From: Solitalea canadensis DSM 3403
GTDB lineage: Bacteria; Bacteroidota; Bacteroidia; Sphingobacteriales; Sphingobacteriaceae
Direction of reading: 5' to 3'
NCBI RefSeq assembly: GCF_000242635.2
Contig: NC_017770.1
Span: 3,112,669-3,176,668, forward strand
Length of the DNA stretch: 64,000 nt
The number at the start of each line of letters is the position of its first letter. Positions within the stretch are counted from its first letter, which is position 1. Made by a program: the position numbers and the translations under genes. Shown piece after piece: positions 42,996 through 57,287 of the stretch. The notes beneath the pieces were generated by a model. That model was not told the origin of the DNA. It saw only the letters and a program-made list of their open reading frames with translations, and did not search any database.

Positions 42996-43907
42996 TTACC
43001 TGCTTTTTGTAAACAGAGAAATCTTCATGTTCAATGATAAGTTACCATCTGTATACGTTCTTAATGCTTTAGTTTCAGATGTATACAATGCAAGCAATTG
43101 TATTCTTGAAAGCATGTTAACGCCAAGACCTACCGTATAACTCTTTGTTGAGTGATAAATAGCCTGAATATCAGCCAGGTTACTAGCAACCTTAACATTT
43201 ACGCCTGCATCCCAAATATCGGTATTGCCTTTTACCATGGTGTATGAAAGCTTTGGCTCAATACTGCTTAGCTCTTCTCCCATATTAATTTTATAGGATG
43301 CAGCTGAATAAAGAACCGAGCGATCGATGGTACTGTAGGTTTCTTTCACAATGTAATTGCGAATGGTAGGCATAGCCGCCTGCAGTGTTAATCCACTACC
43401 TGTGTAAGCAATACCAAAATCACCGTCCATATAAGCTCCTCTGGAGTTATACTCCTGTAGTGAAGGGTCGTTCTGATCTCCATCCACCTCGTTAATCGGT
43501 AAACTGTTATTTTCAACAGCTGCCGATAGACCAAAGTGTAATGTTTGTCCGTCACCACCTACAGGTAAGTGGTAGGCATATGATAATGCCACACGTGTTT
43601 TAGTTAACAGCCCCGCTTTTTGGTTCGATAAATTAAGACCTAACCCTACTCTTTTACCTAAATTATAATCGGCAGTAAGCAATTTATTCACCGAAGAGCC
43701 CGGCATATCATCATACTGTTTATTATATGACAGGTTTAAATTCAAACTTGAATCTATACCGGCCATTGCCGCATTTGCCTGGTATTGGTTAAAGAAAAAT
43801 TGAGCCGGACCAGGGTTACGTTGTGCCTGGGCGGAATAGGTAATTCCGCCAAGTAACAAGGTTAGTAAGATCAGCTGTTTGCTTATATTTTTTGTTAATG
43901 ATTTCAT
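42996..43907 (-). CDS. PorP/SprF-family type IX secretion outer-membrane protein
   Basis: 303 residues, ATG start. A signal peptide (about 1-28, ending TYSAQAQ) is followed by the family pattern PAQFFFNQYQANAAMAGID, LNLNLSYNKQYDDMPGSSVN and a barrel ending LSLNMKISLF. PorP/SprF proteins are 14-strand-type outer-membrane partners required for surface attachment of the large T9SS cargo encoded next to them. It starts 11 bp after the giant adhesin gene on the same strand, so it is cotranscribed, and it is presumably that protein's dedicated anchor. Confidence 0.94.
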   Translation of the reverse strand: MKSLTKNISKQLILLTLLLGGITYSAQAQRNPGPAQFFFNQYQANAAMAGIDSSLNLNLSYNKQYDDMPGSSVNKLLTADYNLGKRVGLGLNLSNQKAGLLTKTRVALSYAYHLPVGGDGQTLHFGLSAAVENNSLPINEVDGDQNDPSLQEYNSRGAYMDGDFGIAYTGSGLTLQAAMPTIRNYIVKETYSTIDRSVLYSAASYKINMGEELSSIEPKLSYTMVKGNTDIWDAGVNVKVASNLADIQAIYHSTKSYTVGLGVNMLSRIQLLALYTSETKALRTYTDGNLSLNMKISLFTKSR

Positions 43908-43918
43908 GTCTGATTCCG

Positions 43919-46900
43919 TTAGTCGCGAACAATGGTGATATAACCTTTATACAATTTTGAACCATTACCTAAATCAATGATATAATAATAGGTGTCTTCA
44001 TGTAGAGGTTCCCCATTAATGGTTCCATCCCACTCATTTAAATACCCTGATTTAGTATAGATCATTCGTCCTGCTTTGTCAAATATTTTGACAAGGTTGT
44101 TAGGATAGCTTTCAATGTTTCTAACTAGCCATTTATCATTGTATCCATCGCCATTAGGAGTAATAACATTGGTAGCATTAAGTTTGAAATCTTCAACCAC
44201 CTCAATTGTTATCGATTGCTCAACAACACATCCCTTAGCATTATATCCCTTCACTGAATAAGTTGTTGTTTGCATAGGGCGAACCTGTACCATCGGATCA
44301 TTTTTACTACCTATAATTCCGTCCACGTTTGCCCACTCGTAAGTAGTTGCATTACCTACCGCAGAAAGTTCAACTATGTCTCCTTTGGATATTTTCAATG
44401 AGGACACATTGCTCTTAACCGTAAAGATTGGTAATGCATTTACCGTTAGCTTAAATGATTGTTCAGCAAGATCAACTCCCCCATTAGCTACACCTCCATT
44501 GTCTTTTACGCTTACTTTAACAATTGCATCACCAACAGCGTTTGGAGCCAACACATAGCGAATAGTGGCTTTTCCGTTACTACCCTTAACAATTACAAGC
44601 TTGTCAAAGATGTTTCTATCAGACTGGATACTTAAGGTATAAGTTTGACCAGATTCAGGTCCGGCACTAATTCCAGTAACCGCAATTTGTTCTTCACCGG
44701 TAGTATGACAAAGTTCTTTATCACTTAGCGGATCAATTGTAGGTTTTTCGTTCACATCGTTAATCGTGATTACGAAAGTTTTCTCTAACCAAATATTACT
44801 TTGCGTGGTTGATCGAACACGAATATTAAATGTTGATTTTTGTTCAAAATCAAAGCTTCCTACTGTATTGATCGCATTACCATTAATAACAAATAATGCA
44901 TTATCGGTATCGCCAGAACCCGGTACTAACGAATAAGTATACGTTGCAGCAGGATTTCCTGATGTACTGCTCAATGAACCGGCAGATGATCCTGCAGGTC
45001 TGTTCTCATAAAGAGTAGCAGTCGCTAATATAATATCCGTTGGTGCCGCAGCTTTTACCTTCATCGTACCACCCACATAAGTAATGGTATAGTTGGTTGA
45101 TACTGCTCCATTAGCTGTAATAGTGTAATCACCCGTCAAGCTTGCTGACGTTGCTGTGGTCGAAACAGCAGGTTGTGCTGTTAGGCTATTATTATCATCA
45201 CCGTTTGCAAAGCCATTATAACTAACAGTTAAAGCAGGAACTGCATCACCTTCAAACATTTCTTTATTATCAGCAGTAATTGTCAACTGTTTAGGAGTGA
45301 TGGCAAAATTATCACCAACATAACTAATAGCATAGTTAGCGCCTGCACTTAAGCTTCCCTGGTTAATTGCATAAGTTGCAACATTTTCACCCGAAGTTCT
45401 AGCTAAAGCTCCTGTAAATGAATCTCCGGCAGCTAACGGGCCACCTGTAGTAATGCTATAAGCTAAAACAGGATCAGCTGAGCCATACTCTTTTGTTTGT
45501 CCGGCTGTTGCAGTTACTGTAATTGCTTTGGCTGTAATATCTCCGGAAACAGTGAATGTATTAAGAACATAATTGTTATTATCAGCTCCAGATAAAACTA
45601 AACCATTAATTGTAACAGGCTTAGCAACACCTACATCCTTTGAATTATACCTAGCAGAAGCATACTGTACCTGAACATCATCCGTTCCGACTAAACCATT
45701 TGCTGCGGTGAAGCCATTAAAGTTAACTACCGCTAAATCAGTTCCATCGTACACTTTACTGATTATTCCTGCAGTCGCAGTAATAGGTTTTGCAGTGATT
45801 TCACCAGTAGTAGTTGCACTGGTAGTGGTTAAGGTATAATAGTCTTTTTGCAAACCTGAAAGAACAAAACCATTTACAGTTATAGTTTTGCCAGCCCCTG
45901 TATTTTTATTATCATACTGAGCTGTTCCGGTAACAGTTACATCATCTGCTCCTACTAAACCATTTAACTGATAATTTGTAACTACAAGACTAGCTTGAGC
46001 ATCACCATTATATTGTTTTGTGATTACAGGAGCTGCATTTAACGATACTGTAATATCCTTACGGTTAATCGTTAACGTAGCTGTTGTAGATGCTGCAAGA
46101 TGATTTGCATCAGCAGCCTGTGCAGCTGTTATCGTAACCACACCCGGTTTATGAATAGTAACGGTACTACCAGTTATCGATGCGATTGTGGCATCACTAC
46201 TTGCATATGAAAATGCCCCTGTACTATTAGATGTTGGTGCATTTAGTGCAAAGTCAACATCTCCGTAGTTTTTGGTTAAAGTAGCAAATCCGCTTAATGT
46301 TGCTGGCTCGATAATACTGAATGTTTCAGTATGAATACATCCATTAGCATCGGTTACTGTTACCGTATAAGCTCCGGCAGCAAGACCTGATGCAGTTGCG
46401 CCAGTTCCACCGCTTGGTGCCCATGAATAGGTATAGGTTCCTGTACCACCTGTTACATTAACCGTTGCAGAACCATCATTACCACCTGCTGAACTAACAT
46501 TATTTTGTGACGTACTTGCAGCTAATATAGTTGGCTCAGTAATCATGAAGCTTTGGGTTGTAAAACAACCATTAGCATCAGTTACCGTTACCGTATAAGT
46601 TCCGGCAGTAAGACCTGTTGCTGTTGCAGCAGTACCTCCGCTTGGCGCCCATGCATACGTATAAATTCCGGTACCTCCGGTTACATTAACCGTTGCGCTT
46701 CCATTTGAACCACCATTACAACTCACATTTGTCTGCGATCCGGCAATAGCCACTAAAGCAGCTGGTTCGGTAATTGTAAAGCTCTGGGTTGCTGTACAAC
46801 CATTCGCGTCTGTTACCGTTATGGTATAGGTTCCAGCGGCAAGACCTGATGCGGTTGCAGCAGTTCCTCCACTTGGAGCCCATGCATAAGTATAAGTTCC

Positions 46901-49900
46901 GGTACCTCCTGTTACGTTTACGGTTGCAGAACCATTGCTTCCACCGTTACAAGATACATTGGTTTGTGATCCTGCTGAAGCAACTAATAAAGTTGGTTCG
47001 GTAATGGTGAAGCTTTGAGTGGTTGTACAACTGTTCGCATCGGTTACTGTTACTGTATAAGTTCCGGCTGCAAGTCCGGATGCGGTTGCAGCTGTTCCTC
47101 CGCTTGGAGCCCATGAATAAGTATATGCTCCAGTACCTCCGGTTACATTAACTGTTGCGCTTCCGTTTGACCCACCGTTACAGCTCACATTTGTTTGTGC
47201 TCCGACAGAAGCTACCAATGAAGCTGGTTCGGTAATGGTGAAGCTTTGAGTTGTTGTACAACTGTTTGCATCGGTTACCGTTACTGTATAGGTTCCCGCA
47301 GCAAGACCTGATGCAGTTGCAGCAGTACCTCCGCTTGGTGCCCAACTATAGTTATAGCCAGGAGTTCCTCCCGTTACACTCACCGTTGCCGTTCCGTTTG
47401 CTCCGCCGTTACAGCTTACATTCGTTTGAGAATTTGCCGTAGCCACTAACGCAGAAGGCTGAGTAATGGTGAAGCTTTGTGTATCGGTACATCCGTTTGC
47501 ATCGGTTACCGTTACGGTATAAGTTCCGGCAGTAAGACCTGTTGCTGTTGCAGCAGTGCCTCCACTTGGTGCCCATGAATAAGTATAGGTTCCGGTTCCT
47601 CCTGTTACGGCAACTGTAGCCGATCCGGTTGCAGAACCATTACAAGCAATATTGGTTTGTGCACTAGCTGTTGCATTTAATACCGCTGGCTCAGTAATGG
47701 TGAAGCTTTGAGTTGTTGTACAACTGTTCGCATCCGTTACCGTTACTGTATACGTTCCAGCTGCAAGACCGCTTGCTGTTGCTGCAGTGCCTCCGCTTGG
47801 TGCCCATGCATAAGTATAAGTTCCGGTACCTCCTGTTACGTTTACGGTTGCAGAACCATTGCTTCCACCGTTACAAGATACATTGGTTTGTGATCCTGCT
47901 GAAGCAACTAATAAAGTTGGTTCGGTAATGGTGAAGCTTTGAGTGGTTGTACAACTGTTCGCATCGGTTACTGTTACTGTATAAGTTCCGGCTGCAAGTC
48001 CGGATGCGGTTGCAGCTGTTCCTCCGCTTGGAGCCCATGAATAAGTATATGCTCCAGTACCTCCGGTTACATTAACTGTTGCGCTTCCGTTTGACCCACC
48101 GTTACAGCTCACATTTGTTTGTGCTCCGACAGAAGCTACCAATGAAGCTGGTTCGGTAATGGTGAAGCTTTGAGTTGTTGTACAACTGTTTGCATCGGTT
48201 ACCGTTACTGTATAGGTTCCCGCAGCAAGACCTGATGCAGTTGCAGCAGTACCTCCGCTTGGTGCCCAACTATAGTTATAGCCAGGAGTTCCTCCCGTTA
48301 CACTAACCGTTGCCGTTCCGTTTGCTCCGCCGTTACAGCTTACATTCGTTTGAGAATTTGCCGTAGCCACTAACGCAGAAGGCTGAGTAATGGTGAAGCT
48401 TTGTGTATCGGTACATCCGTTTGCATCGGTTACCGTTACGGTATAAGTTCCGGCAGTAAGACCTGTTGCTGTTGCAGCAGTGCCTCCACTTGGTGCCCAT
48501 GAATAAGTATAGGTTCCGGTTCCTCCTGTTACGGCAACTGTAGCCGATCCGGTTGCAGAACCATTACAAGCAATATTGGTTTGTGCACTAGCTGTTGCAT
48601 TTAATACCGCTGGCTCAGTAATGGTGAAGCTTTGAGTTGTTGTACAACTGTTCGCATCCGTTACCGTTACTGTATACGTTCCAGCTGCAAGACCGCTTGC
48701 TGTTGCTGCAGTGCCTCCGCTTGGTGCCCATGAATAAGTATATCCAGCAGTTCCTCCGGTTACAGCAACTGTTGCAGTTCCGTTTGTTCCACCGTTACAA
48801 GATACATTCGTTTGTGCTCCCGCTGAAGCTACTAATGAAGCAGGTTCGGTAATAGTGAAGCTTTGAGTGGTTGTACAAGTGTTCGCATCGGTTACTGTTA
48901 CCGTATAAGTTCCGGCTGCAAGACCTGTTGCTGTTGCAGCAGTGCCTCCGCTTGGAGCCCATGAATAGGTATATGCTCCAGTACCCCCGGTTACATTAAC
49001 TGTTGCGCTTCCGTTTGCTCCGCCGTTACAGCTCACATTTGTTTGCGCTCCTACTGAAGCTACCAACGAAGCTGGTTCGGTAATGGTAAAGCTTTGTGTT
49101 GTAGTACATCCATTTGCATCGGTTACTGTTACCGTATAGGTTCCCGCAGCAAGGCCTAATGCAGTTGCAGCAGTACCTCCGCTTGGTGCCCAACTATAAG
49201 TATAACCAGGTGTTCCTCCTGTTACGTTAACTTTTGCAGTTCCGTTTGCCCCTGCATGACAGCTTACATTCGTTTGTGTACCAGCTGAAGCGATTAAAGC
49301 TGAAGGCTGCGTAATGGTGAAGCTTTGTGTATCGGTACATCCGTTTGCATCGGTTACCGTTACGGTATATGTTCCGGCAGTAAGACCTGTTGCGGTTGCA
49401 GCAGTGCCTCCACTTGGTGCCCATGAATAGGTATATGTTCCTGTACCTCCCGTAGCACTAACTGTTGCACTTCCGGTTGCTCCTCCATTACAAGCAATAT
49501 TTGTTTGTGCTACAGGCGTTGCATTTAAAACAGAAGGCTCAGTAATGGTGAAACTTTGAGTTGTAGTACAACTGTTCGCATCCGTTACCGTTACTGTATA
49601 CGTTCCGGCTGCAAGACCGCTTGCGGTTGCAGCAGTGCCTCCGCTTGGTGCCCAACTATAAGTATAGCCAGAAGTTCCTCCGGTTACATTAACTGTTGCA
49701 GTTCCGTTTGTTCCGCCATTACAGCTTACATTCGTTTGTGCTCCCGCTGAAGCTACTAATGAAGCAGGTTCGGTAATTGTGAAGCTTTGAGTTGTTGTAC
49801 AAGCGTTACCATCGGTTACTGTTACCGTATAGGTTCCGGTTGCGAGACCTGATGCTGTTGCACCAGTACCTCCGCTTGGAGCCCATGAATAGGTATATGC

Positions 49901-52900
49901 TCCAGTACCACCGGTTACATTAACTGTTGCGCTTCCGTTTGCTCCGCCATTACAGCTTACATTCGTTTGCGCTCCTACTGAAGCTACCAACGAAGCAGGT
50001 TCAGTAATGGTAAAGCTTTGGGTAGCTGTACATCCGTTTGCATCGGTTACCGTTACTGTATAGGTTCCCGCAGCAAGGCCTGATGCGGTTGCTCCAGTAC
50101 CTCCACTTGGTGCCCAACTATAGGTATAGCCAGGAGTTCCTCCCGTTACGTTAACTTTTGCAGTTCCGTTTGCCCCGCCGTTACAGCTTACGTTCATTTG
50201 TGTGCCAGCTGAAGCGATTAAAGCTGAAGGCTGAGTAATGGTGAAGCTTTGTGTATCGGTACATCCGTTTGCATCGGTTACCGTTACGGTATAAGTTCCG
50301 GTAGTAAGACCTGTTGCTGTTGCAGCAGTGCCTCCACTTGGTGCCCATGAATAAGTATAGCTTCCGGTTCCTCCGGTAGCACTAACTGTTGCGCTTCCGG
50401 TGGCAGAACCATTACAAGCAATGTTAGTTTGTGCTAAAGGTGTTGCTACTAAAGCTGCAGGCTCGGTAATAGTAAAGCTTTGGGTATCAGTACATCCGTT
50501 TGCATCGGTTACCGTTACGGTATACGTTCCCGCTGAAAGTCCTGTTGCGGTTGCTCCTGTGCCTCCGCTTGGTGCCCAACTATAAGTATAACTTGAAGTT
50601 CCTCCTGTTACATTAACCGTTGCACTTCCGTTTGTTCCGCCATTACAGCTTACATTCGTTTGTGCTCCGGCTGAAGCTACGAGTAAGGTTGGTTCTGTTA
50701 TCGTGAAGCTTTGAGTGGTTGTACAACTGTTCGCATCGGTTACCGTTACCGTATAGGTTCCAGCCGTAAGACCTGTTGCGGTTGCAGCAGTACCTCCGCT
50801 TGGAGCCCATGAATAAGTGTAACCTGAAGTTCCTCCTGTTACACTCACTGTTGCCGTTCCGTTTGCTCCGCCGTTACAGCTTACATCCGTTTTTGATCCG
50901 ACTGAAGCTACCAATGAAGTTGGTTCGGTAATAGTGAAGCTTTGTGTTGTAGTACAACTGTTAGCATCCGTTATTGTTACCGTATAGGTTCCAGCCGTGA
51001 GACCTGTTGCTGTTGCTGCAGTGCCTCCACTTGGTGCCCATGAGTAAGTATAAGTTCCTGTTCCGCCTGTTACACCAACTGTTGCGCTTCCTGTTGCATC
51101 TCCATTACAAGCAATGTTTGTTTGTGCGACAGGTGCTGCTACTAAAGCAGCTGGTTCTGTAATTGTGAAACTTTGGGTATCAGTACATCCATTCGCATCG
51201 GTTACCGTTACGGTATACGTTCCGGCAGTAAGACCTGTTGCTGTTGCAGCAGTACCTCCGCTTGGTGCCCATGAATACGTATAAGTTCCTGTTCCCCCCG
51301 TAGCGCTAACTGTTGCGCTTCCGGTTGCTCCTCCATTACAAGCAATATTGGTTTGTGAGACAGCGGTTGCACTTAATGCTGTTACTGGCTCTACAATAGT
51401 AAAGCTTTGAGTATCAGTACATGCGTTTGCATCGGTAACTGTAACCGTATATGTTCCGGCTGCTAGTCCTGTTGCTGTTGCAGCAGTTCCTCCGCTTGGT
51501 GCCCATGAGTAGGTATATCCAGCAGTTCCTCCTGTTACGCTAACTGTTGCAGTACCGTTTGCCCCACCGTTACAACTTACATTTGTTTGTGAAGCAGCCG
51601 TGGCTACTAAAGGTGATAAAGGCTGATTTACAGCAATAGATCTTGTAATCTGGCAAGAATTATTATCCGTTACTGTTACTGTATAAGTTCCCGTAGCAAG
51701 TCCTGATGCAGTTGCTGCAGTACCTCCACTTGGAGCCCATGAATAAGTATATGGTCCAGTTCCTCCTGAAGCCACTACCGTAGCAGTTCCGTTAGTTCCT
51801 CCATTACAGCTCACATCTGTTCGTGTAATGGTGCCATCCAATGCCGATAAAGGCTGATTTACAGTAACGGTTCTTGTTATCTGGCAAAGTTTGGAATCTC
51901 TTATTGTTACGGTATACGTTCCGGCTGCCAGACCTGTTGCTGTAGCATTTGAACCGCCACTAGGACTCCATGAATAAGTGTATGGGGGAGTTCCGCCTGA
52001 TGCCAAAACTGTAGCTGTTCCGTTAGCTCCTCCAAAACAACTTACATCTGTTTTTGATGCTGATGCTGTTAAAGCAGAAGGTTCAGTAATAAAGAAACTT
52101 TGAGTTGTACTACAGTTATTCGCATCTCTAACCGTTACGGTGTAACTCCCTGCAGGTAAACCTGATGCAGTTGCAGCAGTTCCTCCGCTTGGGGCCCAAC
52201 TATAAGTATAACCAGGAGTTCCTCCCGTTACATTAACTGTTGCTGTTCCATTTGCTCCTCCATTACAAGAAACATTGTTTATTGTTCCTGCAGAAGCAAC
52301 TAAAGCTGTTGGTTGGTTGATTGTAAAGTTTTTAGTTATAGATACTGAAGCAGCATCAGTGATTGTTACTGTATAACTTCCTGCTGCAAGATTTGAAGCA
52401 GTTGCTCCAGATCCTCCGCTAGGAGACCACGAATAGGCATAAGGAGGAGTACCTCCGGATGCAACTACACCGGCAGATCCCGTGGTTGCTCCATTACACA
52501 AAATATCTGTTTGTGAGGTAGTAGCTACCAGTGGTGGCGCTGTTACAGTAAAGACCGGATTATTACCTGGAAACTCTGTTCCATTAGGGTTAAGGTCTTT
52601 TACAGCTGCTTCATCTCCAGACCAATTTGCTGTATTACTAATGGCACTTAACAGCTGGGCTTTTGTACCAGACAACGTACCAGTATATACCATGTTATCA
52701 GCATGCAATGATACGCCTGTTAAAGCAAGAGCCGTTGTTCCGCTTGTTAACGAGGCTGGCAAATAAGAGGTTGTAGCTGAAACAGTTGCTCCGGCAGTAT
52801 TAAGCCAAACGCCATTTGTTCCGGTTGACCAGTTGGCAAATCCGTATATAAAAGAAGGAGATGCTTCTGATCCGGAATATATAAACCAATTATCACCTCC

Positions 52901-53299
52901 ACTTGCAATAGGGGCACCAGACCATCCGGAAGGGGTTACTGTTCCATAGGAACTTAATCCACCAGTGACTGCTCCGCCTGCTGCAATGGTTATTTTAATC
53001 AATGTACCCGCAGGAACAGTTGTTGTTATGCCCCAGGTAATTAAACCTTCAGCTACTGTGTTACTCTGATTAAAACCACCTGCTTCTAGCCACCCTTTGT
53101 CTGTTATATAAACAGTTTGACCAGCAGTAATGCTGGCCAAAGTAACAATAGCTATCTCATCATTAGTTCCATCAGAGTTTACACCTACAATGGCTATATC
53201 CCCTGATGTTATTTGTGCATTACTTTCTAAGGCAAAACAAATTGCACATAGAAAGAACACTGTGCTAAAGACTATAGAAAATAGACTGTTTTTTTTCAT
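43919..53299 (-). CDS. Giant T9SS-exported adhesin with 27 SprB repeats and type B sorting domain
   Basis: About 3126 residues. I use the ATG at 53299 (MKKNSLFSIVFSTVFFLCAI, signal peptide to about residue 29). The open TTG at 53362 lies inside the upstream gene and is rejected. Order: an N-terminal domain (about 30-250, GDIAIVGVNSDGTNDEIAIV, an LTD-like exported domain); 27 SprB repeats of about 77 residues (about 255-2335), each with GGTxxYTYSWAPSGGTAATA and two Cys; a Big-like and several YDG/MBG domains (about 2336-2755); a cadherin-like segment (FVITINDVNEKP); and a C-terminal gliding-motility/T9SS type B domain from about 3045 (NVITPNGDGYNDKWLV, ending YKGYITIVRD). It is probably a filamentous surface adhesin for gliding or attachment. 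Confidence 0.95.
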   Translation of the reverse strand: MKKNSLFSIVFSTVFFLCAICFALESNAQITSGDIAIVGVNSDGTNDEIAIVTLASITAGQTVYITDKGWLEAGGFNQSNTVAEGLITWGITTTVPAGTLIKITIAAGGAVTGGLSSYGTVTPSGWSGAPIASGGDNWFIYSGSEASPSFIYGFANWSTGTNGVWLNTAGATVSATTSYLPASLTSGTTALALTGVSLHADNMVYTGTLSGTKAQLLSAISNTANWSGDEAAVKDLNPNGTEFPGNNPVFTVTAPPLVATTSQTDILCNGATTGSAGVVASGGTPPYAYSWSPSGGSGATASNLAAGSYTVTITDAASVSITKNFTINQPTALVASAGTINNVSCNGGANGTATVNVTGGTPGYTYSWAPSGGTAATASGLPAGSYTVTVRDANNCSTTQSFFITEPSALTASASKTDVSCFGGANGTATVLASGGTPPYTYSWSPSGGSNATATGLAAGTYTVTIRDSKLCQITRTVTVNQPLSALDGTITRTDVSCNGGTNGTATVVASGGTGPYTYSWAPSGGTAATASGLATGTYTVTVTDNNSCQITRSIAVNQPLSPLVATAASQTNVSCNGGANGTATVSVTGGTAGYTYSWAPSGGTAATATGLAAGTYTVTVTDANACTDTQSFTIVEPVTALSATAVSQTNIACNGGATGSATVSATGGTGTYTYSWAPSGGTAATATGLTAGTYTVTVTDANGCTDTQSFTITEPAALVAAPVAQTNIACNGDATGSATVGVTGGTGTYTYSWAPSGGTAATATGLTAGTYTVTITDANSCTTTQSFTITEPTSLVASVGSKTDVSCNGGANGTATVSVTGGTSGYTYSWAPSGGTAATATGLTAGTYTVTVTDANSCTTTQSFTITEPTLLVASAGAQTNVSCNGGTNGSATVNVTGGTSSYTYSWAPSGGTGATATGLSAGTYTVTVTDANGCTDTQSFTITEPAALVATPLAQTNIACNGSATGSATVSATGGTGSYTYSWAPSGGTAATATGLTTGTYTVTVTDANGCTDTQSFTITQPSALIASAGTQMNVSCNGGANGTAKVNVTGGTPGYTYSWAPSGGTGATASGLAAGTYTVTVTDANGCTATQSFTITEPASLVASVGAQTNVSCNGGANGSATVNVTGGTGAYTYSWAPSGGTGATASGLATGTYTVTVTDGNACTTTQSFTITEPASLVASAGAQTNVSCNGGTNGTATVNVTGGTSGYTYSWAPSGGTAATASGLAAGTYTVTVTDANSCTTTQSFTITEPSVLNATPVAQTNIACNGGATGSATVSATGGTGTYTYSWAPSGGTAATATGLTAGTYTVTVTDANGCTDTQSFTITQPSALIASAGTQTNVSCHAGANGTAKVNVTGGTPGYTYSWAPSGGTAATALGLAAGTYTVTVTDANGCTTTQSFTITEPASLVASVGAQTNVSCNGGANGSATVNVTGGTGAYTYSWAPSGGTAATATGLAAGTYTVTVTDANTCTTTQSFTITEPASLVASAGAQTNVSCNGGTNGTATVAVTGGTAGYTYSWAPSGGTAATASGLAAGTYTVTVTDANSCTTTQSFTITEPAVLNATASAQTNIACNGSATGSATVAVTGGTGTYTYSWAPSGGTAATATGLTAGTYTVTVTDANGCTDTQSFTITQPSALVATANSQTNVSCNGGANGTATVSVTGGTPGYNYSWAPSGGTAATASGLAAGTYTVTVTDANSCTTTQSFTITEPASLVASVGAQTNVSCNGGSNGSATVNVTGGTGAYTYSWAPSGGTAATASGLAAGTYTVTVTDANSCTTTQSFTITEPTLLVASAGSQTNVSCNGGSNGSATVNVTGGTGTYTYAWAPSGGTAATASGLAAGTYTVTVTDANSCTTTQSFTITEPAVLNATASAQTNIACNGSATGSATVAVTGGTGTYTYSWAPSGGTAATATGLTAGTYTVTVTDANGCTDTQSFTITQPSALVATANSQTNVSCNGGANGTATVSVTGGTPGYNYSWAPSGGTAATASGLAAGTYTVTVTDANSCTTTQSFTITEPASLVASVGAQTNVSCNGGSNGSATVNVTGGTGAYTYSWAPSGGTAATASGLAAGTYTVTVTDANSCTTTQSFTITEPTLLVASAGSQTNVSCNGGSNGSATVNVTGGTGTYTYAWAPSGGTAATASGLAAGTYTITVTDANGCTATQSFTITEPAALVAIAGSQTNVSCNGGSNGSATVNVTGGTGIYTYAWAPSGGTAATATGLTAGTYTVTVTDANGCFTTQSFMITEPTILAASTSQNNVSSAGGNDGSATVNVTGGTGTYTYSWAPSGGTGATASGLAAGAYTVTVTDANGCIHTETFSIIEPATLSGFATLTKNYGDVDFALNAPTSNSTGAFSYASSDATIASITGSTVTIHKPGVVTITAAQAADANHLAASTTATLTINRKDITVSLNAAPVITKQYNGDAQASLVVTNYQLNGLVGADDVTVTGTAQYDNKNTGAGKTITVNGFVLSGLQKDYYTLTTTSATTTGEITAKPITATAGIISKVYDGTDLAVVNFNGFTAANGLVGTDDVQVQYASARYNSKDVGVAKPVTINGLVLSGADNNNYVLNTFTVSGDITAKAITVTATAGQTKEYGSADPVLAYSITTGGPLAAGDSFTGALARTSGENVATYAINQGSLSAGANYAISYVGDNFAITPKQLTITADNKEMFEGDAVPALTVSYNGFANGDDNNSLTAQPAVSTTATSASLTGDYTITANGAVSTNYTITYVGGTMKVKAAAPTDIILATATLYENRPAGSSAGSLSSTSGNPAATYTYSLVPGSGDTDNALFVINGNAINTVGSFDFEQKSTFNIRVRSTTQSNIWLEKTFVITINDVNEKPTIDPLSDKELCHTTGEEQIAVTGISAGPESGQTYTLSIQSDRNIFDKLVIVKGSNGKATIRYVLAPNAVGDAIVKVSVKDNGGVANGGVDLAEQSFKLTVNALPIFTVKSNVSSLKISKGDIVELSAVGNATTYEWANVDGIIGSKNDPMVQVRPMQTTTYSVKGYNAKGCVVEQSITIEVVEDFKLNATNVITPNGDGYNDKWLVRNIESYPNNLVKIFDKAGRMIYTKSGYLNEWDGTINGEPLHEDTYYYIIDLGNGSKLYKGYITIVRD
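46290..52535 (-). repeat. Coding tandem array of 27 SprB units (231-bp period)
   Basis: I count 27 successive units in the translated protein, most of exactly 77 codons. Units 10-25 (about 46722-50417) repeat in groups of four, giving a 924-bp higher-order period. For example GTAATGGTGAAGCTTTGTGT recurs at 47463, 48387 and 50235, each a multiple of 924 apart, with a near-identical copy at 49311. Confidence 0.93.
46878..48732 (-). repeat. Near-identical tandem duplication of 924 bp inside the SprB array
   Basis: About 46878-47808 and 47802-48732 read the same at offset 924. The one difference I found is C at 47381 against A at 48305. Identity ends at GCCCATGCATAAG versus GCCCATGAATAAG on the right side, and similarity drops left of 46878. 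It corresponds to units 18-21 and 22-25. Confidence 0.88.
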
Positions 53300-53327
53300 A
53301 ATAAATGTTAGGACAAAAACCAGGTTG

Positions 53328-53885
53328 TTAATTTCTAGAAGGATAGACTCCTTCAAGTGCAATACAGTAGTTCATTGCCAAATAAGGCTGCATATTATTA
53401 TGTGGTTGACTTCCACCTGCTATTCCTATCGTACTAACTACTGAGCCATTATTTAGTTGAATAGTTGGATTTGTAGCTACAAAGCCATTAGAAGGATCGC
53501 CGTTAATATCCATAACCCCACCAATAGAATTACCGGCAACTGGTGTATGTACATTAGCATCTCCTGCATTAACATTAAGAACAGAAGTAGCCACATGATT
53601 ATGTGCTGGCATTTCTGTTATAATTAAAGTGTGATGCTCTTCTCCACCTATTTCACCTATGTAATGATTAGACAAACCCGGGCCTTGACCTTGACCTATT
53701 GCCACCCTACCTTGCAAGTTCGGTAATGCAAAAGTTGTTTGGCCGTTTCCTCCATACGTAGTTCCTAATAAAGAGAAAAGTGCAGTGTTTGAAGAAATAG
53801 CTAAAAGTTGTCCATTACAAAGTGCCCATCCACGTGGTGCCCAAGGAAATCCAAAAAGTTGAATCTGTCCGACAAAAGGTTCCAT
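53328..53885 (-). CDS. Phage-tail-collar-domain protein (microcystin-dependent-protein-like)
   Basis: 185 residues, ATG start. The Tail_Collar domain is at about 5-62 (VGQIQLFGFPWAPRGWALCN, GQLLAISSNTALFSLLGTTY, GGNGQTTFALPNLQGRVAIG). A Gly-rich region with EIGGEEHHTLIITEMPAHNH follows, and the C-terminal signature is NNMQPYLAMNYCIALEGVYP. In phages the domain trimerises at fibre tips; stand-alone bacterial copies are common and uncharacterised. No signal peptide or other phage gene is nearby. The stop codon is only 28 bp from the giant adhesin ATG, so the two and porP/sprF look like one operon. Confidence 0.93.
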   Translation of the reverse strand: MEPFVGQIQLFGFPWAPRGWALCNGQLLAISSNTALFSLLGTTYGGNGQTTFALPNLQGRVAIGQGQGPGLSNHYIGEIGGEEHHTLIITEMPAHNHVATSVLNVNAGDANVHTPVAGNSIGGVMDINGDPSNGFVATNPTIQLNNGSVVSTIGIAGGSQPHNNMQPYLAMNYCIALEGVYPSRN

Positions 53886-56267: not shown

Positions 56268-57287
56268 ATGAAAGAACTTATTGCAGATACCTTAGAAACA
56301 GGAAAAATACCTGCCTATCACTTAAAACGTTTCTGGAGCAAAACCATAAAAAAACGTGAAGGAACTATTGCACAAGATGCTTTTCTTGACGAATGGCAAT
56401 TAGATAGCTCTTTGTTAAATATTTTGAGCGTAGGAATTGAGCAAACGATTATTTATCTATACCACCATAACCCAAGCTTTGAAAAATTTGAGGATTGGAT
56501 TTTGGCACTAAATAATAACCAGTTATCGAGTGCTAAGATTGAGCAATTTAATGCTTCTATCTCAAAAGATAACACGCTTGAAACATCAAACATTTTAACG
56601 GATTATTTATTAACCGAAGCAGATCTTGCTTTCTGGAGGGAAAATGGTTATCTGATTATTCGTAATGCCATTGCTAAAGAAGACTGCGATGCAGTGATAA
56701 GTGCAATTTGTGAATTTATTCAGGTTGATTTAACTAATCCTTCAAGTTGGTATTATGATCATCCGGCCAAACAAGGAATTATGGTTCAACTCTTTCAGCA
56801 TCCCGCTTTGGAGAAAAATCGAAATTCCCAAAAAATCAGGTCTGTTTATGAACAGCTGTGGAACCGAAGTGATCTTTTTGTAAGTACTGACAGAGTAAGC
56901 TTTAACCCGCCTGAATGCGAATACTGGAAGTTTCCAGGACCAAAAATGCATTGGGATGTAAGTCTTGAGCTACCTATTCCATTTGGACTACAAGGCTTAT
57001 TATACTTGTCGGACACCCAAGCAAATCAGGGAGCTTTTACATTGGTCCCTGGCTTTCAAAATAAGATTGAAGCATGGATCAATAGCTTACCAGCGGGAGT
57101 TGATCCAAGATTTCTGAATCTACATGCATTAGGATCTGTACCAATTGCAGCCAATGCAGGTGATTTTATCGTTTGGCACCAGGCTCTCCCACATGGAAGC
57201 AGCCCAAATACGGCTAACTTACCACGTATGGTACAGTACATTAACTACGCACCTATTGATGCTGAAATAAAAACTGAATGGAAATAG
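56268..57287 (+). CDS. PhyH-family Fe(II)/2-oxoglutarate dioxygenase with N-terminal extension
   Basis: 339 residues, ATG start, 6 bp after cysC, so surely cotranscribed. The first about 110 residues form a helical extension (IADTLETGKIPAYHLKRFWS, LLNILSVGIEQTIIYLYHHN) that I do not recognise. The dioxygenase domain runs from about 112 to 335: FWRENGYLIIRNAIAKEDCD, the iron-binding HxD in GPKMHWDVSLE (His228, Asp230), QGLLYLSDTQANQGAFTLVP, the distal His309 in WHQALPHGSSPN, and Arg320 for 2-oxoglutarate. It should hydroxylate a small molecule or side chain. Confidence 0.9.
   Translation: MKELIADTLETGKIPAYHLKRFWSKTIKKREGTIAQDAFLDEWQLDSSLLNILSVGIEQTIIYLYHHNPSFEKFEDWILALNNNQLSSAKIEQFNASISKDNTLETSNILTDYLLTEADLAFWRENGYLIIRNAIAKEDCDAVISAICEFIQVDLTNPSSWYYDHPAKQGIMVQLFQHPALEKNRNSQKIRSVYEQLWNRSDLFVSTDRVSFNPPECEYWKFPGPKMHWDVSLELPIPFGLQGLLYLSDTQANQGAFTLVPGFQNKIEAWINSLPAGVDPRFLNLHALGSVPIAANAGDFIVWHQALPHGSSPNTANLPRMVQYINYAPIDAEIKTEWK

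Follow-up and report, generated by a model that had tools for sequence, protein, structure and literature searches.

The stretch analysed here, 64,000 nucleotides of Solitalea canadensis DSM 3403 (contig NC_017770.1, positions 3,112,669 to 3,176,668; hereafter the window), carries a giant gene that, in our reading, encodes a long type IX secretion system (T9SS) surface protein whose stalk of SprB repeats was lengthened by duplications of four units at a time, through out-of-register exchange. We place the probability of this reading at roughly 0.87. The stalk, in which SprB domains with a predicted immunoglobulin-like beta-sandwich fold stand one after another, would have grown through successive in-frame tandem duplications of a four-unit segment of 924 base pairs (bp), or 308 amino acids (aa), each produced by an out-of-register exchange between units lying four apart. 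Since units four apart match better (88-100% identity in the recent part of the array) than neighbours do (about 77%), such a register would maintain itself. The junction left by its last growth step is resolved to within 7 bases.

The four-unit order and its newest duplication

Units 10-25 of the 27-unit array (46763-50458) form four groups of four with a period of 924 bp, and every group repeats the same succession of unit types: a first type (A; units 10, 14, 18 and 22) with the motif NIACNGxATGSATV, ending in TITQP and followed by SAL; a second (B; units 11, 15, 19 and 23) of the NGGANGTA type, with the variant CHAGANGTA in unit 15; a third (C; units 12, 16, 20 and 24) carrying GAY; and a fourth (D; units 13, 17, 21 and 25). 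An earlier note on this DNA had described this order, which holds unit by unit, and had given its span as 46722-50417, which identifies the array correctly and displaces its coordinates by 41 bp. The note had also pointed to a marker block recurring every 924 bp, and a 20-mer is indeed present, exact and at that spacing, at 47463, 48387, 49311 and 50235. When up to 4 mismatches are allowed on both strands, the 20-mer is found at 21 places, 17 of them with 1-4 mismatches; it is therefore weak evidence, and was rejected as proof of the period on its own. Tandem Repeats Finder, in which the longest period allowed is 500, reported the 231-bp unit only.

Within units 10-25, mean unit identity was 92.1% at lag 4, 86.0% at lag 8 and 84.3% at lag 12, and lay between 75.2 and 78.5% at the remaining lags up to 13. 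Over units 5-26, the lag-4 mean was 87.9%; when the units were put in random order 20,000 times, no value came as high, the maximum being 83.3%, and a second statistic on the lag-4 order of the array was reached in none of 1,000 shuffles. In the unit tree, types A and B were firm (support of 99/96 and 96/95, respectively), and place in the block required 3 changes for the four groups, compared with 11.4 in shuffles. Units 6-9 follow the four-fold order only in part, with the A-type unit 7 occupying the B place. All 27 units find their best match within their own array when five arrays are compared. The most diverged units are outer ones (1, 3, 4 and 27), as expected if exchange acts on the middle units. 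The ages of the blocks are nested: groups 10-13 and 14-17 are 90.9% identical to each other, both are 86.5-88.1% identical to group 18-21, and groups 18-21 and 22-25 are 97.4% identical.

The newest block appears at lag 924 as a run of 931 bp with one mismatch. When a tandem duplication of length P arises by exchange within h shared bases, the resulting run is P + h long, and the observed 931 = 924 + 7 thus points to an exchange inside a 7-bp shared tract (Table 1). This tract lies in unit 21, which is a chimera of units 25 and 17: a single switch accounts for all 48 informative sites of the unit (25, then 23), with no exception, and for all 124 sites (44, then 80) when 350 bp are added on each side. 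Among 8,754 parent-child triples scanned, unit 21 as the child of units 25 and 17 ranked first. The chimera indicates that the exchange joined units of the same type at an equal position within the unit and in frame, and unit 21 marks, as far as sequence can tell, the place where four units were gained by unequal exchange. The earlier note had proposed that the array grew by unequal recombination, one block of four units at a time; this chimera and the duplication of 924 + 7 bp strongly support that proposal. The general idea that adhesins grow by unequal exchange is thereby turned into a sharp prediction, namely length alleles 924 bp apart with type-matched chimeric units at their seams.

Table 1. 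Positions of the array, its blocks and the neighbouring features in the window.
Feature	Position	Strand
Giant T9SS substrate: signal peptide, N-terminal domain, 27 SprB repeats, YDG and MBG domains, type-B C-terminal sorting domain	43919..53299	-
SprB array, 27 units of 76-78 aa each	46304..52540	-
Group 1, units 10-13	49535..50458	-
Group 2, units 14-17	48611..49534	-
Group 3, units 18-21	47687..48610	-
Group 4, units 22-25	46763..47686	-
Newest tandem duplication, first copy (931 bp at lag 924, one mismatch)	47802..48732	-
Newest tandem duplication, second copy	46878..47808	-
Sole difference between the newest copies: GTT at 48305, GTG at 47381, both Val (synonymous)	48305..48305	-
Unit 21, chimera: 5′ part as unit 25, 3′ part as unit 17	47687..47917	-
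7-bp tract common to units 17, 21 and 25, holding the switch	47802..47808	-
C-terminal stalk (YDG, MBG and other domains) and type-B sorting domain	43922..46303	-
PorP/SprF-family outer membrane protein	42996..43907	-

SprB arrays at other loci

We compared the array with others in a survey of 57 open reading frames (ORFs) with at least 8 units, drawn from 76 sources (the window and 75 loci) at the top of hit lists and hence a non-random sample. A higher order was called where identity exceeded that of both adjacent lags by at least 5 points and no more than 10 of 1,000 shuffles were as high. By this rule, 13 ORFs passed, corresponding to 11 loci in 10 genomes once fragments of one locus were merged, and 44 did not. 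The orders among the passing arrays were 2, 3, 4, 5 or 7; the 80-unit array of genome G001 peaks at lag 10, a multiple of its order of 2. A search of named genomes with an alignment of six carrier proteins found 15 loci, none of which was used for array counts. Many of the relative arrays run into contig ends.

A second case of the junction pattern was found in a 7,000-residue protein of genome G544 (locus L103), where a fresh seven-unit duplication at lag 1710 leaves a run of 1720 bp with 3 mismatches, that is, the block plus a short 10-bp tract, and where units 32-38 and 39-45 are 99-100% identical. Both copies mostly find their matches in one and the same set of units of a protein of genome G559 (L109). 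These two arrays have a seven-unit order, their units are collinear between the genomes, and each carries its own recent seven-unit duplication. Comparing the phases of the seven-unit arrays by simple modulus was abandoned, as interruptions blurred it, and unit-to-unit matching worked better.

The likely counterpart of the giant gene in another species of the genus (G002, at 3.40 Mb) encodes 1991 aa with 10 SprB units and 7 MBG_2 stretches, compared with 27 units and 2 MBG_2 stretches in the window. No significant unit order was detected in this counterpart (145 of 1,000 shuffles were as high), and the four-unit order as an ancestral trait of the genus is therefore unsupported. The G002 matches to the right-hand flank of the window (the collar gene, APS kinase and the gene at 56268) lie by the 3.40-Mb locus. 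Those to the left-flank aminotransferase and the best match to the carrier (72%) lie by a second G002 locus, at 2.08 Mb, in whose 1376-aa protein no SprB unit was detected. Because the flanks are split between two G002 loci, orthology is partial.

Other long repeat genes were observed on the way. In the same genome as the window, positions 2784500-2804400 (L039) encode a 6062-aa protein with 54 SprB units, in which near-identical segments 800-940 bp long recur at lags 2097, 2565 and 4662 as a patchwork with no one clear order, and positions 889000-908900 (L041) hold a second giant ORF (7560 aa) of near-identical 1050-bp blocks, with a 4554-bp run at lag 1050 and 20 mismatches. A giant ORF of G002 (L053, 1759500-1779400) contains two families of blocks, one of 1077 bp and one of 996 bp, and near-identical runs in it extend over 5117 and 4173 bp. 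On contig 35 of G003 (L054), an SprB array with orders of 2 and 4 is broken up over many frames; assembly errors in the repeat or decay may explain the frameshifts.

How the blocks arose

The exchange would presumably have been homologous recombination between sister copies. A somewhat unlikely alternative is that the blocks arose during replication by slippage or a switch of template at short matches, independently of RecA and without homologous crossover, as the brevity of the junction tract (7 bp here, 10 bp in G544) would suggest. The switch, however, joins same-type units at equal position with the frame kept, which pairing of whole units explains easily. Slippage guided by that similarity would leave an identical trace, and the sequence cannot separate the two.

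That the array varies freely from cell to cell, as a length-switching device, appears improbable. Strains of Flavobacterium psychrophilum are described as ranging from 35 to 88 units (PMC8400371), and the periscope proteins offer a precedent in PMC8201768; however, most groups of the window array are only 84-91% identical, and free shuffling would give more uniformity than this, and just one duplication is fresh. The older blocks differ by 9-16%, with a proportion of synonymous differences (pS) of 0.22-0.37 and a ratio of the nonsynonymous proportion (pN) to pS of 0.18-0.22, which indicates that the earlier events are old and that purifying selection acts on the domains. Judging from these divergences, much of the array looks long stable, with only 46878-48732 freshly duplicated. 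As the rest of the array is old, variation is expected chiefly in the form of a single 924-bp block gained or lost within 46878-48732, so that length variation within the species would run mainly in four-unit steps within this youngest stretch, and the protein probably changes its length in four-domain steps.

Selection is quite unlikely to be what maintains the four-unit order, with four types doing different jobs or holding a structural register, as in the super-repeats of giant muscle proteins. Protein change is constrained between groups (pN/pS of 0.10-0.25), and the long SprB-repeat proteins of the two other genomes noted above keep collinear units in a seven-unit order, as selection might require. 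At third codon positions, however, the lags differ more strongly (84% identity at lag 4 vs 54-62% where the lag is no multiple of 4) than they do at positions 1 and 2 (96% vs 86-87%), as shared history predicts; the four-fold order would thus reflect shared descent of blocks and not selection for four protein types. Moreover, the four types belong to one domain family (Cys66 and Cys15 are each present in 26 of the 27 units), and, with orders of 2, 3, 4, 5 and 7 in other arrays and no significant four-fold order in the likeliest counterpart of the genus, four is no functional constant.

Scarcely credible is an assembly artefact, in which the true array would have three groups and the newest block, two 931-bp copies with one difference and hence of a repeat type that assemblies miscount, would be spurious: the copies do differ at one site, the genome is in one contig, and the four-fold order survives removal of units 22-25 (a lag-4 excess of 6.9 points, with 1 of 5,000 shuffles as high). 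In short-read assemblies, genes of this kind may carry wrong repeat counts.

Several results weigh against growth by four-unit unequal exchange. At only 7 bp, between parents that are 82% identical around it, the exchange tract is shorter than classical homologous recombination would lead one to expect. Divergence between the older blocks is considerable (pS of 0.22-0.37), and the events are hence rare. In the unit tree, type C is weak (55/74), and type D, which includes the chimeric unit 21, is not one clade and needs two changes, so that the check by unit phylogeny proposed in the earlier note bears out most of the four-fold grouping and not D as a clade. The 54-unit array, the other SprB array in this genome, has no significant higher order by the statistic used in the survey (335 of 1,000 shuffles). 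The G544 junction is less clean evidence, as a single switch leaves 1 of its 400 sites unexplained and its parents are only 43% identical (ungapped).

A neutral exchange model, run in 18 settings, produced higher orders of 2-11 in 57-130 of 150 arrays, a count made without shuffle control. We give even odds to a more general proposal, register locking, according to which, once neighbours have diverged, exchange in SprB adhesins is confined to units k apart, so that stalks would change in length by fixed multi-domain quanta (four domains and 924 bp here; seven and 1710 bp in the 7,000-residue SprB-repeat protein, which is of another family) and the quantum would drift between lineages. If register locking holds, stalk length would be quantised within a species.

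The protein, its setting and known systems

The genome around the window is one contig of 5.2 Mb. The ORF at 43919-53362, on the reverse strand, amounts to 3147 aa when counted from a TTG at 53362; the ATG at 53299 (residue 22), which precedes the signal-like stretch, is the likelier start. The SprB repeat profile matched 27 stretches of the product with 888.9 bits (curated cut-off of 28), and the type-B sorting domain was matched by TIGR04131 with 67.8 bits (cut-off of 35) and by CHU_C with 83 bits (cut-off of 27). The adjacent PorP/SprF-family protein, likely the dedicated carrier and anchor of the giant protein, matched TIGR03519 with 141.3 bits (cut-off of 90.55). The giant protein thus shows all three marks of an SprB-repeat type-B T9SS surface protein, namely the repeats, the sorting domain and the adjoining PorP/SprF-family carrier; it is probably surface-exposed, and its stalk would project from the surface. 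Upstream of the giant gene, a gene with a phage-collar domain (53328-53885) overlaps it only in the TTG-started extension, and a collar-domain-like gene likewise lies upstream of the G002 counterpart.

A pair of units was confidently predicted as two all-beta domains, with a predicted local distance difference test score (pLDDT) of 97.5 and a predicted template modelling score (pTM) of 0.83. The closest solved structures were phage Hoc, Aureispira GhpA and immunoglobulin-type proteins, 15 of them with an expect value (E) of at most 0.001. When 462 aa of the array were compared by sequence with solved structures, only weak matches to phage decoration and neck proteins appeared (best E of 0.00083). 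Cys15 and Cys66 occur together in 25 of the 27 units and hardly vary across 79 unit pairs, which makes an intra-domain disulphide between them likely. The outermost units alone depart from this pattern, unit 1 being without Cys66 and unit 27 without Cys15. A domain of the size of an SprB unit adds a few nanometres, and one four-unit block perhaps adds about 15 nm.

Type-B proteins are described as being anchored by PorP-like carriers (PMC9143113), and SprF of Flavobacterium johnsoniae as having in its C-tail a twin-cysteine motif needed for SprB movement (PMC12635249). The window carrier (303 aa) has no cysteine, and thus lacks this C-tail mark of SprB proper. A GldJ-like protein appears to exist in the genome, with a best profile match of 369 bits and a second stretch of 64 bits, below the cut-off of 458.2; the profile matched in all four genomes of the genus, none above the cut-off, and in 2 of 14 control genomes, also below it. 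On these profile and motif comparisons, the identity of the giant protein as the gliding filament SprB is not established and a gliding role is unproven. Given the cysteine-free carrier and the sub-cut-off GldJ, a gliding filament is no likelier than a stationary or slow-moving surface stalk.

No description of higher-order repeats in SprB-type arrays was found among the matches listed from the open-licence literature, judged by title. With the F. johnsoniae gliding adhesin SprB, the window protein shares the SprB repeats (PF13573), the type-B sorting domain and an adjoining PorP/SprF-family gene; it differs in the carrier, which is without the twin-cysteine tail, in its YDG/MBG stalk and in size (3147 aa, whereas SprB is given as 669 kDa in PMC9143113). 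GhpA, the Aureispira grappling hook protein (9flw, 9flp and 9flv), comes closest among bacterial folds to the unit pair as predicted (template modelling scores of 0.58-0.63), a likeness by fold and not by sequence search. The gliding motility-associated protein of F. psychrophilum, with 35, 55, 69, 87 and 88 units in five strains according to PMC8400371, is likewise a Bacteroidota repeat protein. Periscope proteins, which supply the functional context and are described in PMC8201768, also place folded tandem domains in a surface stalk, and the number of these domains varies, whereas in the window the DNA repeat of highest identity is the four-domain block. The resemblance to satellite DNA drawn in the earlier note is a fair analogy, as alpha-satellite higher-order repeats likewise combine diverged monomers, similar blocks and outer units that are the most diverged, although the window array is protein-coding, short and contained in one bacterial gene. 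Domain repeats often expand by several domains at once, nebulin by seven, and such expansion shares with the window the joint duplication of several mid-array domains and a peak in autocorrelation (PMC1553488). The window array is a clean new example of this known process, in a gene that, unlike nebulin, is bacterial and exon-free, and in which the junction chimera of the last event can still be read.

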